Positions 10,228 through 40,842 of a stretch of 43,782 nucleotides of DNA are shown here, piece after piece (positions within the stretch are counted from its first letter, which is position 1; each line of letters opens with the position of its first letter). Below the pieces are notes generated by a model. The model worked only from the letters and a program-made list of their open reading frames with translations, had not been told where the DNA came from and did no database searches. Source of the stretch: Acidobacteriaceae bacterium (GTDB lineage: Bacteria > Acidobacteriota > Terriglobia > Terriglobales > Acidobacteriaceae); assembly GCA_027452125.1 (NCBI GenBank), contig DAIDGZ010000154.1, forward strand, positions 1-43,782, given 5' to 3'. A program made the translations under genes and the position numbers.

Positions 10228-11112
10228 ATGTCCAACACATCCAGGCGAGACATTCTCAAGGCAGGCGTTGCCGCAGGCGCGCTCGCCGGTATCAGCACCC
10301 TATCCTTTGCCGCCGAGCCGGGCGCCAAGGCCACTGACTGGGTCACACTGGGCAAGTCGAATGTGCAGGTCACGCGTCTGGCCTTCGGCACCGGCACCAT
10401 GAATGGCCGCGTGCAGCGCGACCTGGGCCAGGAAGGATTCACGCGCCTGGTGCGCTACGCCTATGACCAGGGCATTCGCTTCTTTGAGACTGCGCAGTCG
10501 TATCCCGAGATGCACACCATGCTGGGCATCGCGCTGAAGGGCCTGCCCCGCGAAAGCTACCGGCTGATGACCAAGCTCACCACGGACGATGCCGACCCGA
10601 TGCAGACCATCGACAGCCTGCGCCGCCAGATTCAAAGCGACTACTTCGACATCATGCTGCTGCATGTGCAGCAGTCTCCCACGTGGCCAACCGACAGCCT
10701 GCGCTGGCAGGAGGGCATCAACGAAGCGCAACAGCGCAAGATCGTCATCGCCCGCGGCGCCAGCGTCCATGGCCTGCCCGCGCTGCACCAGGTACCCACC
10801 ACGGACTGGCTGCAGGTAGCCATGATTCGCATGAACCACAAGGGAACCATCATGGACAACGAACCCGGCCACGCGCATGAACCGGGCAACGTGCCGGAGG
10901 TGGTGAAATACGTGCACATGACGCGGCAGGCGGGTATGGGCGTCATCAGCATGAAGCTGATCGGCGAGGGGCGCTTCACCGAGCGCGAAGACCGGCAGAA
11001 ATCCATGCGCTTCGCCTTCAACCACGCAGGCGTCAACTGCGTCACCGTGGGCTACAAGAGTCCTGCCGAAATTGACGAGGCCATCAGCAACGTCAACCTG
11101 GCCCTAGCCTGA
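10228..11112 (+). CDS. Tat-exported aldo/keto reductase
   Basis: A 294-residue aldo/keto reductase with an N-terminal twin-arginine signal (SRRDILKAG plus a hydrophobic stretch ending near SFAAEPGA). Barrel marks include LGKSNVQVTRLAFGTGTMNG, IRFFETAQSYPEMHTMLGIAL (catalytic Tyr in TAQSYPEM, Asp position replaced by Glu in FFETA), the catalytic Lys in RLMTKLT, the His in IMLLHVQ, and VNCVTVGYKSPAEIDEAI near the C terminus. Start at 10228 follows GGAGGG with suitable spacing; the longer frame would hide the Tat motif. Its divergence from the exported fucosidase suggests action on a sugar or sugar-derived aldehyde, but the substrate is unknown. Confidence 0.88.
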   Translation: MSNTSRRDILKAGVAAGALAGISTLSFAAEPGAKATDWVTLGKSNVQVTRLAFGTGTMNGRVQRDLGQEGFTRLVRYAYDQGIRFFETAQSYPEMHTMLGIALKGLPRESYRLMTKLTTDDADPMQTIDSLRRQIQSDYFDIMLLHVQQSPTWPTDSLRWQEGINEAQQRKIVIARGASVHGLPALHQVPTTDWLQVAMIRMNHKGTIMDNEPGHAHEPGNVPEVVKYVHMTRQAGMGVISMKLIGEGRFTEREDRQKSMRFAFNHAGVNCVTVGYKSPAEIDEAISNVNLALA

Positions 11113-11145
11113 TGAGACTGTTTTTGAGCCGGTGAAAGTCCGTGC

Positions 11146-11175
11146 TTGACGGCCGCCCGCCCACGGGACTAGCTT
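11146..11175 (+). promoter_or_regulatory. Sigma-70-like promoter of the small-ORF unit
   Basis: TTGACG (11146-11151) and TAGCTT (11170-11175) lie 18 nt apart, predicting transcription start near 11182, just before a strong Shine-Dalgarno and a 16-codon ORF. Confidence 0.45.
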
Positions 11176-11208
11176 GTCCTTACACGGGAAAGGAGGTTGA
11201 TCCAGTCT

Positions 11209-11259
11209 ATGCAGAATGATTGTTCCAGTAGTTTCTTACGTGAGGTGACTGAGGCCTAG
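11209..11259 (+). CDS. Candidate 16-residue small protein or leader peptide
   Basis: The frame encodes MQNDCSSSFLREVTEA and stops at TAG (11257-11259). It is preceded by AAAGGAGG (11189-11196), a near-maximal Shine-Dalgarno with 12 nt to the ATG, and by a promoter-like pair at 11146-11175. The peptide is hydrophilic with one Cys, no signal or membrane segment, and I do not recognise it. Its last codons form the 5' arm of a long hairpin, and its stop codon sits in the 6-nt bulge of that hairpin, so translation and folding would interfere. No gene follows on this strand before nrdR, so classical attenuation of a downstream gene is not supported. Translation is unproven; the evidence is the arrangement of signals. 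Confidence 0.45.
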   Translation: MQNDCSSSFLREVTEA

Positions 11260-11366
11260 GGCATCGCGTCCCCAGACTCAGGTAAGACCCGGCGGAGGGT
11301 TCTCCGTCATGGCCCTGGCAGTCGCGGCAGCGCGATGGCCTTAGTCCAATCCCAACAGTTCACCGG

Positions 11367-11397
11367 CAACGGCCTGGGCATCGCGCTCAGGCCGTTG
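11367..11397 (+). terminator. Terminator of the small-ORF/hairpin transcript
   Basis: CAACGGCCTG (11367-11376) pairs perfectly with CAGGCCGTTG (11388-11397) and is followed by TTGCGTTTGG, a moderate T-rich tail on the plus strand. It also lies 30 nt past the poxB stop and may act there too. Confidence 0.6.
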
Positions 11398-11426
11398 TTG
11401 CGTTTGGCGCAGAGTACACCAGTGCT

Positions 11427-13151
11427 CTATCGGAAGAGATTGGTACGCGCCAGATCGACGATCTCGTCGCCGCGCCCGTTCAGAATCGCCTTGATCATGT
11501 AGAGGTTGAAGTCCACGATCTGATCCAGCTTGAGAGACGGCGGCATGGCCAGTTCCTGCCGGTTCACCGCTACATCCACCAGAGCGGGTCCGGGATGCGC
11601 CAAGGCCTTCTCCAGCGCCGGCCGCACATCCGCCGGATCGTCCACATGCAGCCCCAGCACTCCCGCGGCCTCCGCAATCTGCGCAAAGTCAGGATTCTCC
11701 AGGTCTGTCGCGTGGTTCAAAAAGCCAGTGGCTTTCATCTCCAGTTCCACAAAGCCGAGTGAGCCGTTGTTGAAGAGCACAATTTTTACCGGCAGCCGCA
11801 ACTGCCGCAGCGAGAGCAGGTCGCCCATCAGCATTGAGAGGCCGCCATCGCCGCACAGCGCCACCACCTGCCGTCCGCGGTGCGAGATCTGCGCGCCAAT
11901 CGCCTGCGGCAGTGCATTGGCCATCGAACCATGGTTGAACGAGCCCAGCAGACGGCGGCGTCCATTCATCTTCAGATAGCGCGCCGCCCAGATCACCGGC
12001 GTCCCCACATCCACGGTGAAGATTGCGTCGTCTGCGGCCACCTCATGCAGCACCCTGGCCAGATACTGCGGATGAATGGGCAGTTGCCCGGGCTTGCCTG
12101 TCGCCAGGTCATCCAGAATCTTGCGCGCCTCGCGGTAGTCGGCCAGTGCGTTGTCCAGATGGCCACGGCCCTGCTTCTGCTCAATGGACGGCAGCAGCGC
12201 GCGCAGCGTCTCCGCTACGCCGCCCACCACGCCCAGAGTCACATGACTCCGGCGGCCAATCTGCTCCTGCCGGATGTCCACCTGCACAATGCGCGCGTTC
12301 TGCGGGTAAAACTGCTGATAGGGAAAGTCCGTGCCCAGCATCAGCAGCGTGTCGCAGCTCATCATGGCCTTGTAGCCGGAGGAGAAGCCGAGCAAGCCGG
12401 TCATGCCCACGTCGTAAGGATTGTCGTACTCGATGAACTCCTTGCCGCGCATGGCGTGCACAATCGGCGCCTGCAGCTTGCCCGCCACGGCCACCAGTTC
12501 GTCATGCGCCCCGGCGCATCCCGCTCCGGCCAGAATCGTCACCCGCTGCGCGCTGTTCAATTCGCTCGCCAGCCGCGCAATCTCTTCCCTGCCCGGCGTC
12601 ACCTGCGGCTGTGCAACGGCCAGGTTGACGCGCTGCTCGCTCACCACGGCGTCAGAGAGCGCCACGTCCCCGGGCAGCACCACCACCGCTACGTCCCGCT
12701 TGGCCAGCGCTGTCTGGATGGCAATCTCCAGCGTGCGCGGCATCTGCGCAGGATGCGACACCAGTTCGCAGAAGGCGCTGCACTCCTTAAACAGCAGCTC
12801 CGGGTGCGTCTCCTGAAAGTAGCCGCTCCCGATCTCGCGCGAGGGGATGTGCGCGGCAATGGCCAGCACCGGCACGCGGCTGCGATGGCAGTCATAGAGT
12901 CCATTGATCAGATGCAGATTGCCCGGCCCGCAACTGCCCGCGCAGACAGCCAGTTTGCCGGTCAGCGCAGCCTCGGCTCCGGCGGCAAAGGCGGCCGTCT
13001 CTTCGTGGCGCGTACCCACCCACTCCATGCCGTTGCGCACGCGGATCGAGTCAGTGATTCCGTTCAGCGAGTCGCCGGCCACGCCGTAGATGCGCTGCAC
13101 GCCGGCTGCGGCCAGCACCTCCACAAACAATTCCGCCACCTTCTTTGCCAT
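11427..13151 (-). CDS. poxB: Pyruvate dehydrogenase (quinone) / pyruvate oxidase
   Basis: PoxB decarboxylates pyruvate to acetate and CO2 and passes electrons to the membrane quinone pool, using ThDP and FAD. The product has 574 residues, close to E. coli PoxB (572). It shows the N-terminal ThDP domain with the catalytic Glu in [15 protein letters not shown], the central FAD domain ([16 protein letters not shown]), and the C-terminal ThDP-binding motif from [12 protein letters not shown] to LFNNGSLGF. The last residues, SLY-like [30 protein letters not shown] in short pieces ([13 protein letters not shown] then ARTNLFR), resemble the lipid-activated C-terminal peptide of E. coli PoxB. Start at 13151 follows AAGGGAG at 7 nt; the longer frame has no support. 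Acetolactate synthase relatives are less likely given the C terminus. Confidence 0.93.
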
Positions 13152-13352
13152 CTGGTGCTCCCTTCGCACGCCCGGCAGCAAAAACGTTCGGACTCTCTGA
13201 TCGCTTCCGGGCCACTGTAAATGCCCTTTTGTCTTGGTAGATGCAAAGCGATCCGGCAAGGTGCATAGCCGCGCCGGCTTATTCCCGCAGCGTGGGATGT
13301 ATCCGGCCGCCTGATTCTCTTAGTACTCAATCCCTGCGGCCCCTCCATGCCG

Positions 13353-40170: not shown

Positions 40171-40842
40171 TCAGCGCCACACATCTTCGACGCTCTGTAG
40201 CGCCTTTTTTGCAAGACGCAAATACAAGGCTGGCTGCAACACATCCCCAGCCTCAGGGTCACCGTCGTTCCATTGAAACTGTATCTGTCGAAACTGCCAT
40301 ACAGAGCCATTGCGCTTCAGCACAGCAGTCAGCCGCAGCGGTCGAGACCCATTCTTCCAGTCAACCTGGCCCAGAGTCGCTGACCAGGCAACATCGCCGC
40401 TCGACCACACAGCCGATTCCGCGCCGTTGAGCCGCATATTGCCCCATAGCTGCCAGTCGCTGGCAATAAAGCGTTCTGCCTCCTGCTGGCCATGGATCGA
40501 CTCCAGCGGGCTTCCGGCGGTTCCCAGCAGCAGCACCTCCGCATCGGCGGGAAAGAGCCGGTGCACCATTCCCGGCAGCTTGGTAAGATCGCGATCCTTA
40601 TAGCCCTGCTGCAAGTCGTCCAGAGCGGCAATCACCCCAGACCGCACCTCCGGCGAAGCGTCACCGGGATACTGCAGGTGCTGCTTGCGCAGCGAATCCT
40701 GCATACTCGCCCGCCCATGCACGCACGCAATATAACCAACTGCAAACCCCGCCACACCAGACAACATCGCCGCCGCCATGCAGAGTGCCAGCCCGCGTGT
40801 TACGCCACGTGCCAAAGACCACCTCGTACGAACGCCCGGCAT
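40171..40842 (-). CDS. Membrane-anchored NTF2/SnoaL-like protein
   Basis: A 223-residue protein with an N-terminal membrane anchor (ALCMAAAMLSGVAGFAVGYIA, about residues 19-39) and an outside or periplasmic domain of NTF2-like character: IAALDDLQQGYKDRDLTKLPGMV, ADAEVLLLGTAGSPLESIHGQQEAERFI, GDVAWSATLGQVDW, and RPLRLTAVLKRNGSVWQFRQIQFQW. NTF2-like folds bind small ligands or act as lyases/isomerases; no catalytic residues are evident. GGAAGGTGA directly before the ATG is a strong ribosome-binding site. It precedes the SDR gene by 30 nt, probably one transcript. Function unknown. Confidence 0.65.
   Translation of the reverse strand: MPGVRTRWSLARGVTRGLALCMAAAMLSGVAGFAVGYIACVHGRASMQDSLRKQHLQYPGDASPEVRSGVIAALDDLQQGYKDRDLTKLPGMVHRLFPADAEVLLLGTAGSPLESIHGQQEAERFIASDWQLWGNMRLNGAESAVWSSGDVAWSATLGQVDWKNGSRPLRLTAVLKRNGSVWQFRQIQFQWNDGDPEAGDVLQPALYLRLAKKALQSVEDVWR

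Follow-up and report, generated by a model that had tools for sequence, protein, structure and literature searches.

A conserved stand-alone RNA gene of Acidobacteriaceae with a mini-ORF whose last codons also serve as helix strands

Several bacterial RNAs, e.g., SgrS/SgrT and RNAIII, unite an open reading frame (ORF) and a structured regulatory part in one molecule; their peptides are functional, and the ORF and regulatory parts are separate or only partly overlapping. In leader peptides coupled to attenuators, the position of the ribosome decides the folding of the transcript. The RNA gene considered here resembles the former in harboring an ORF together with a structured part, with the difference that its codons and its helices are the same bases. 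With the latter it would share the dependence of folding on ribosome position; unlike them, it is a stand-alone gene with no constant gene downstream. Passages of PMC11109978 give uORF motifs such as ilvB as leader-peptide examples.

The closest described family is Ms_IGR-5 (Rfam RF02471). Excerpts of the respective papers list it as RNA-seq validated in S. lividans (PMC8079986), count it among the sRNA transcription units of S. avermitilis (PMC8780764), show it overlapping a detected sRNA in M. smegmatis (PMC10454040) and report ribosome reads on its homologues in M. abscessus and M. smegmatis (PMC4974804). Since, according to the same portion of PMC4974804, most E. coli ncRNAs show ribosome reads, such footprints are weak proof of translation. 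What has been published on the actinobacterial relatives is consistent with their being transcribed and associated with ribosomes, the ribosome reads being limited to the mycobacterial ones. In the open-access passages retrieved, Ms_IGR-5 figured only as an orphan actinobacterial sRNA; a mini-ORF, an overlap of codons with helices or a wider distribution was not found there. Another RNA to be compared is the Caulobacter sRNA CC2171 (RF01867), whose consensus contains GAAAGGAGGUGAUCCAGUG, as does the RNA described here, and is readable as a short ORF, lacking, in contrast, the E-V ending. The shared GAAAGGAGGUGAUCCAG and the GUG start of that readable ORF were noted besides; CC2171 may be an alphaproteobacterial analogue. 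An excerpt of PMC4117421 describes Caulobacter ncRNAs as not translated, CC2171 not being named in it.

The locus lies in a window of 43,782 nucleotides, i.e., the whole stretch of DNA analysed, from an Acidobacteriaceae bacterium (contig DAIDGZ010000154.1). The RNA gene, about 215 nt long, is situated on the plus strand between two metabolic genes: an aldo/keto reductase (Pfam PF00248) ending at 11112 on the same strand and a PoxB-type thiamine-diphosphate enzyme (PF00205/02775/02776; 11427-13259, minus strand). The order read from the sequence is promoter, Shine-Dalgarno (SD) element, mini-ORF, structured domain and a terminator hairpin reaching 11397; all features of the RNA given below are on the plus strand. 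The genome to which the window belongs, 67% complete, contains the gene once. Elsewhere in the window, a tRNA-Thr (ggt) occupies 40328-40415 of the minus strand. A plasmid or phage origin was rejected: plasmids yielded no matches, and the three matches in phages, none longer than 39 nt (E 0.3), were taken as chance.

The promoter comprises a -35 element TTGACG (11146-11151), an 18-nt spacer and a -10 element TAGCTT (11170-11175). Relatives support it: TTG[AC]-N14-20-TA occurred at the corresponding place in 86 of the 91 representatives with enough upstream DNA (from a total of 93), as compared with a mean of 4.0 and a maximum of 9 in 200 letter shuffles. Judging from the distance to the -10 element, the RNA is predicted to begin with ACACG (11182-11186). 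The terminator hairpin CAACGGCCTGGGC/GCTCAGGCCGTTG, with 13-nt arms that are 92% complementary, is followed by TTGCGTTT (11367-11397). A generic scan called no promoter and no terminator for the unit, presumably because of the weak -10 element and the interrupted U-tract. The sequence-only reading of this stretch had proposed a compact self-contained unit, and its promoter, SD element, ORF and terminator were confirmed. It was also observed that GGGCATCGCG is present twice, after the stop codon (11258-11268) and in the terminator hairpin (11376-11387), so that either copy could pair with 11329-11341; the repeat was not seen in the terminators of two relatives, L003 and L004.

The SD element AAAGGAGG (11189-11196) is followed by an extra T and then by TGATCCAGTC, and the whole stretch (11189-11207) is complementary to the 3' tail of 16S rRNA, GGCUGGAUCACCUCCUUU; this tail was located in 7 of the 21 relatives searched and was not located in the incomplete genome of the window itself. 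Counted with one bulge and G-U pairs allowed, a complementarity of 13-18 nt was found in 91 of the 93 representatives, and the window contained one site with such a long match versus 0.04 expected. The string AAAGGAGGNTGRTCC was encountered in 48 of 150 family genomes and never more than once per genome. These observations speak for an RNA whose function is the match itself, i.e., one which titrates or parks 30S subunits or signals the availability of the anti-Shine-Dalgarno tail, and the part of PMC13009471 at hand describes extended SD pairing as compatible with initiation in S. aureus. On the other hand, that same part expects bS21 to get in the way of such pairing in E. coli; the complementarity admits G-U changes and a bulged base, not every group retains the match beyond GGUGRUC, and the covarying P0/P2 domain and the AAUCCCAACAG strand described below would be left unexplained. 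We consider such a ribosome-binding RNA, in which the mini-ORF would let the ribosome leave and thereby reset the RNA, unlikely.

The mini-ORF (11209-11259) comprises 16 codons, MQNDCSSSFLREVTEA, and ends with TAG at 11257-11259; among the copies, its length ranges from about 11 to 20 codons. Its reading frame was examined in 191 copies (81 found by covariance model and 110 by pattern), a start being counted when it lay 5-15 nt 3' of GGAGG and in phase with GAGGUG. In the 110 pattern loci GAGGTG..TAG is fixed by construction, so only the start and the open frame are tests there. A start codon in frame with E-V-x-x-x-stop was present in 187 of the 191 copies, the other two frames giving 26 and 3; with ATG alone as start, the counts were 140 versus 10 and 0. 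All 191 copies were free of stops in the ORF frame, as compared with 78 and 11 in the other frames. The SD-start spacing ranges from 7 to 14, so a constant distance between the two does not account for the frame. Indels come in multiples of three as well, and the comparative evidence for the frame is strong. By reading, the four copies without a start (L136, L147, L178 and L180, from Zixibacteria, GN15 and an unassigned bacterium) have ATT at the expected place. In a further 20 actinobacterial loci, 17 had a start, L265 and L267 had none and seemingly have CTG or ACG instead (again by reading), and L261 was unparsable. As to the composition of the sets, L129 was dropped, as no SD was found at its edge; L170 (Bipolaricaulota, probably a chance match) is counted among the 191 and not among the 93; L107, L126, L168, L170 and L177 are absent from the 93, having lacked a usable 3' anchor or been excluded beforehand. 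Set A2 leaves out L095, L098 and L099 (weak and without the anatomy), loci from repeated places and, with no reason given, L049.

The conservation of frame, start and stop, together with a C-terminal E-V that precedes mostly small residues in all groups examined (distant acidobacterial copies, translated by hand, end with EVAAP*, EVATS* and EVASS*), could indicate a small-protein gene, in which the peptide of 11-20 residues is the product and the structure a stabilizing 3' UTR. The slight synonymous excess in 43 close pairs (a synonymous fraction of 0.24 vs. 0.17 expected, significance uncomputed) leaves room for some peptide constraint. However, changes in these pairs are distributed over codon positions 1/2/3 as 40/42/55, and the residues upstream of E-V evolve nearly freely. 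Moreover, E-V is always encoded by GAG GUG, which is required by helix P1, and a His-for-Arg change in L010 retains the pairing of helix P0 (CACG/CGUG turned into CAUG/CAUG). Overall, a small-protein gene appears unlikely, slightly more so than the ribosome-binding RNA. As the upstream peptide is nearly free to vary, translation rather than the peptide seems, from these sequence comparisons, to be under selection. The GC content of the upstream codons is 36% against 63% for the window, and AGT accounts for 174 of 267 serine codons in the mini-ORFs versus 9 of 121 in five window ORFs, as if this stretch were kept unstructured.

The 226-nt RNA folds better than its shuffled versions (z -2.6; 2 of 200 shuffles as good), and three helices have their 5' strand or their 3' strand in the last codons. 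Helix P0 joins the 5' end of the RNA (11183-11186) with CGTG at 11239-11242, which directly precedes AGGUG. In 59 author-chosen sequences (set A3), 90.3% of 236 P0 cells were paired, 40 cells displayed a double change versus 11.9 in shuffles, and the score was 0.457 versus 0.172. Two of the five measures were not clearly above the shuffles (pairs with a double change, 89/500; pair types, 140/500), and the helix is only 4-6 bp long, one of its four pairs being unpaired in 16 of the 59 sequences. In a swap test over the 93 representatives, a sequence's own P0 partner beat partners exchanged between species (0/500). Helix P1 connects GGTGA (11244-11248, including the codon GTG) with TCACC (11360-11364); it is nearly invariant, paired in 98.9% of the sister-clade cells with zero double-sided changes. 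The 5' strand of P2, GACTGAGGCC (11247-11256), has two bases in common with P1, ends just 5' of the stop codon and pairs with GGCCTTAGTC (11337-11346). P2 showed no double-sided change within the sister clade; in the swap test over the 93 representatives, its mean helix score was 18.1 versus 13.6 (sd 0.31; 0/500). The swap test ignores relatedness, and at least three of the 93 3' anchors were misplaced (L026, L087 and L106). Thus, the last codons play a dual role, being both codons and the strands of P0, P1 and P2.

The 16-bp helix which the sequence-only reading had drawn between 11247 and 11346 survives in its outer 10 bp, GACUGAGGCC/GGCCUUAGUC (11247-11256 with 11337-11346), i.e., the conserved P2. 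Its inner extension GGGCAUCGCG/CGCGAUGGCC competes with a local hairpin and loop pairing and, when 27 close relatives (24 from the genus and 3 from another) were inspected by eye, found no clear support, so this part was abandoned. The ORF and the helix were found to be real and conserved features; the initial inspection had overlooked P0 and how far the RNA is complementary to the 16S tail. A further hairpin, P3 (GGGC/GUCC; 11259-11271), read in the window from the sequence, has a loop AUCGC able to pair with GCGAU at 11332-11336. In the sister clade (38 sequences), the pseudoknot formed by the loop of the P3 counterpart had 4 of 6 pairs double-changed and 93.9% of cells paired; this extra hairpin and its loop pseudoknot covary there, and P0, P1 and P2 hardly vary. 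One pair proposed for a helix P4 in that clade was paired in none of the 38 sequences and was discarded.

Between P2 and P1 lies the conserved strand AATCCCAACAG (11348-11358), a motif recurring in other families and phyla; the AAUCCCAACAG strand and P1 (GGUG with CACC) are nearly constant. A conserved strand within a stand-alone gene might be expected of an antisense sRNA, in which AAUCCCAACAG or another strand pairs with mRNAs and the mini-ORF merely protects or clears the RNA. At the same time, the Zixibacteria RNAs themselves contain a sequence complementary to the strand (GUUGGG), so the strand may be structural; across all groups its pairing with an apical strand is marginal (13.0 vs. 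12.4, sd 0.22, 0/500), being clear by eye in Zixibacteria. We regard the antisense explanation as improbable, somewhat more so than the small-protein gene. In one relative, 7.2 kb of sequence surrounding the 16S end, with the 23S gene presumed inside, yielded no rRNA target for AAUCCCAACAG; one 13-nt and a few 10-12-nt other stretches complementary to the window RNA were recorded in it.

The order of ORF, hairpin and terminator would suit a leader-peptide attenuator of the next gene, and thiG-like or ruvC-like genes (names from reading) follow the RNA in some genomes. Nevertheless, the next gene in the window is on the opposite strand, and the downstream genes differ across 81 loci. The flanking genes vary likewise between genomes, as judged by crude ORF picking and names taken from the translations read. 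The changing context largely refutes the attenuator, to which we assign only a very slight probability, and agrees with the original view that the unit is not a simple attenuator. In many of the 81 loci (e.g., L021, L023 and L036; mostly genus g34), a thiG-like gene, so named from its translation, was seen 3' of the RNA on the same strand.

A search of the window against Rfam returned nothing above cut-off, acidobacterial motifs included, so the suggestion of a known motif of that kind did not hold. CC2171 (cut-off 75 bits) scored 14.9 bits in the window and had no match in its own genome; the control matched in Caulobacter vibrioides. Ms_IGR-5 (cut-off 45 bits) had no match in the window or in its own incomplete genome, the control genomes being likewise without a match. 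Its model, however, scored 176 to 60 bits on actinobacterial copies and 54 to 62 bits on Zixibacteria-type copies, the cut-off being reached by 3 of 20 loci in one set (L112, L134 and L109) and by 13 of 20 in another. It was not reached by the acidobacterial loci given (L085, L086, L088, L002, L018, L115 and L150), nor by the actinobacterial L255 or by L104, L110 and L180 (Zixibacteria or unassigned). By reading, the window RNA and the Ms_IGR-5 consensus have in common the 5' end (ACAC...), the SD (GGAGGugGuCc), a short ORF ending with GAG GUG ... UAG, the strand AAUuCC..CAG..CACC and the terminator; the window copy differs in the extra bulged SD base, a longer ORF and different apical hairpins.

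Of 29 loci from other groups, R1, a covariance model built from nine Acidobacteriaceae, recovered 28, and of the 24 outside Acidobacteria it recovered 23 (E<=0.01), although these loci were author-chosen via a pattern sharing the strongest motifs of R1 and are not fully independent. Since RF02471 matches relatives and R1 finds the other groups, these RNAs form one superfamily in which the window copy lies outside the curated Rfam boundary. By this sequence evidence, the window RNA is a distant relative of Ms_IGR-5, reached via Streptomyces and Zixibacteria relatives. Of the identities first offered, these comparisons leave a structured RNA with an apparently translated frame; a peptide product is disfavored by the variability of the peptide.

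A blastn search with 11130-11405 had matches, counting short pieces due to chance, in 104 of 200 family genomes (E<=0.01). At the same threshold, R1 matched 213 of 249 genomes of the order, weak matches included, and 46 of 297 genomes of a phylum sample; of its 16 phylum-sample genomes outside the family, 13 displayed the full anatomy, and L095, L098 and L099 did not. A second covariance model of the 5' module, R2, whose training set includes some of the searched genomes, matched 117 of the 297 (E<=0.01; 55 of these weakly), including 31 family genomes, all at E<=4e-16 and with no listed family genome lacking a match, and 31 genomes in ten other acidobacterial families (E<1e-7). R2 also matched 95 of 198 genomes of Actinomycetota, the phylum to which a Streptomyces genome belongs, once per genome (E<=1e-4). 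All 15 genomes reached via other-phylum loci had a match, 14 of them a single one and the remaining one a weak second match besides, and in a small phylum 2 of 3 genomes were matched, weakly in one case. Scanning named genomes for the pattern returned 111 stretches versus about 1 estimated by chance, and among the 80 listed were Zixibacteria, Sumerlaeota, Nitrospinota, Binatia, 'Deltaproteobacteria', Acidobacteria, Streptomyces, Kineosporia and Trebonia. A missing match does not amount to absence, since the large searches use strict filters which lose weak matches.

The usual copy number is one match per genome. Two deviations were recorded: one genome (G310) has two strong copies (C88:16330-16519 and C43:243-428), and in L014 (G083) the gene is split by an insertion into two matching pieces 197 bases apart. 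Being kept mostly as one per genome in several distant phyla, the RNA looks old and widely retained. The blastn relatives, the covariance-model distribution, the frame test and the helix swap test rule out a chance feature. The identity and conservation of the RNA gene are, in our estimation, close to certain; the finding is real, old and under-described.

The best reading of the above, to which we would give about an even chance, is an RNA acting in trans, with a fold that ribosomes on the mini-ORF would gate. Its basis is the conservation, the reading frame, the P0/P2 covariation and the stand-alone context; the switch, the action in trans and a regulated target are inferred. A housekeeping-type promoter would give rise to an RNA of about 215 nt from a single-copy gene; the unusually long 16S-tail match would recruit a ribosome, which would translate some 11-20 codons and stop. 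The last codons and the stop region would provide the 5' strands of P0, P1 and P2, closing the structured 3' domain. A ribosome at the last codons or the stop would cover all three of these strands, so translation and complete folding would exclude each other, in line with the early proposal that a terminating ribosome disrupts the hairpin. Ribosome occupancy would then serve as input, and the 3' domain with the AAUCCCAACAG strand, folded (or opened), as output, the peptide being mostly a by-product. As the neighboring genes differ, this output would act either in trans or upon its own RNA. In a nested folding model with the ORF blocked, the exposure of AAUCCCAACAG did not change uniformly (more exposed in 24 of 93 sequences, less in 37); a uniform unmasking of this strand by the ribosome was not seen in this simple model.

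Only a few RNAs are known to persist as a single copy in the genomes of several phyla, namely tmRNA, RNase P, SRP and 6S RNA. A bolder proposal, somewhat unlikely on present evidence, is that this multi-phylum RNA, at least as old as the split of Actinomycetota and Acidobacteriota unless transferred, represents a general sensor of translation capacity hidden as an orphan sRNA. Initiation via the near-maximal 16S match would keep the last codons occupied, and upon failed initiation the same bases would fold into the conserved domain acting elsewhere in the cell. The covariance model built here finds the gene where Rfam does not and, if the gating is true, it becomes testable whether translation is sensed in bacteria by an RNA dedicated to this task.
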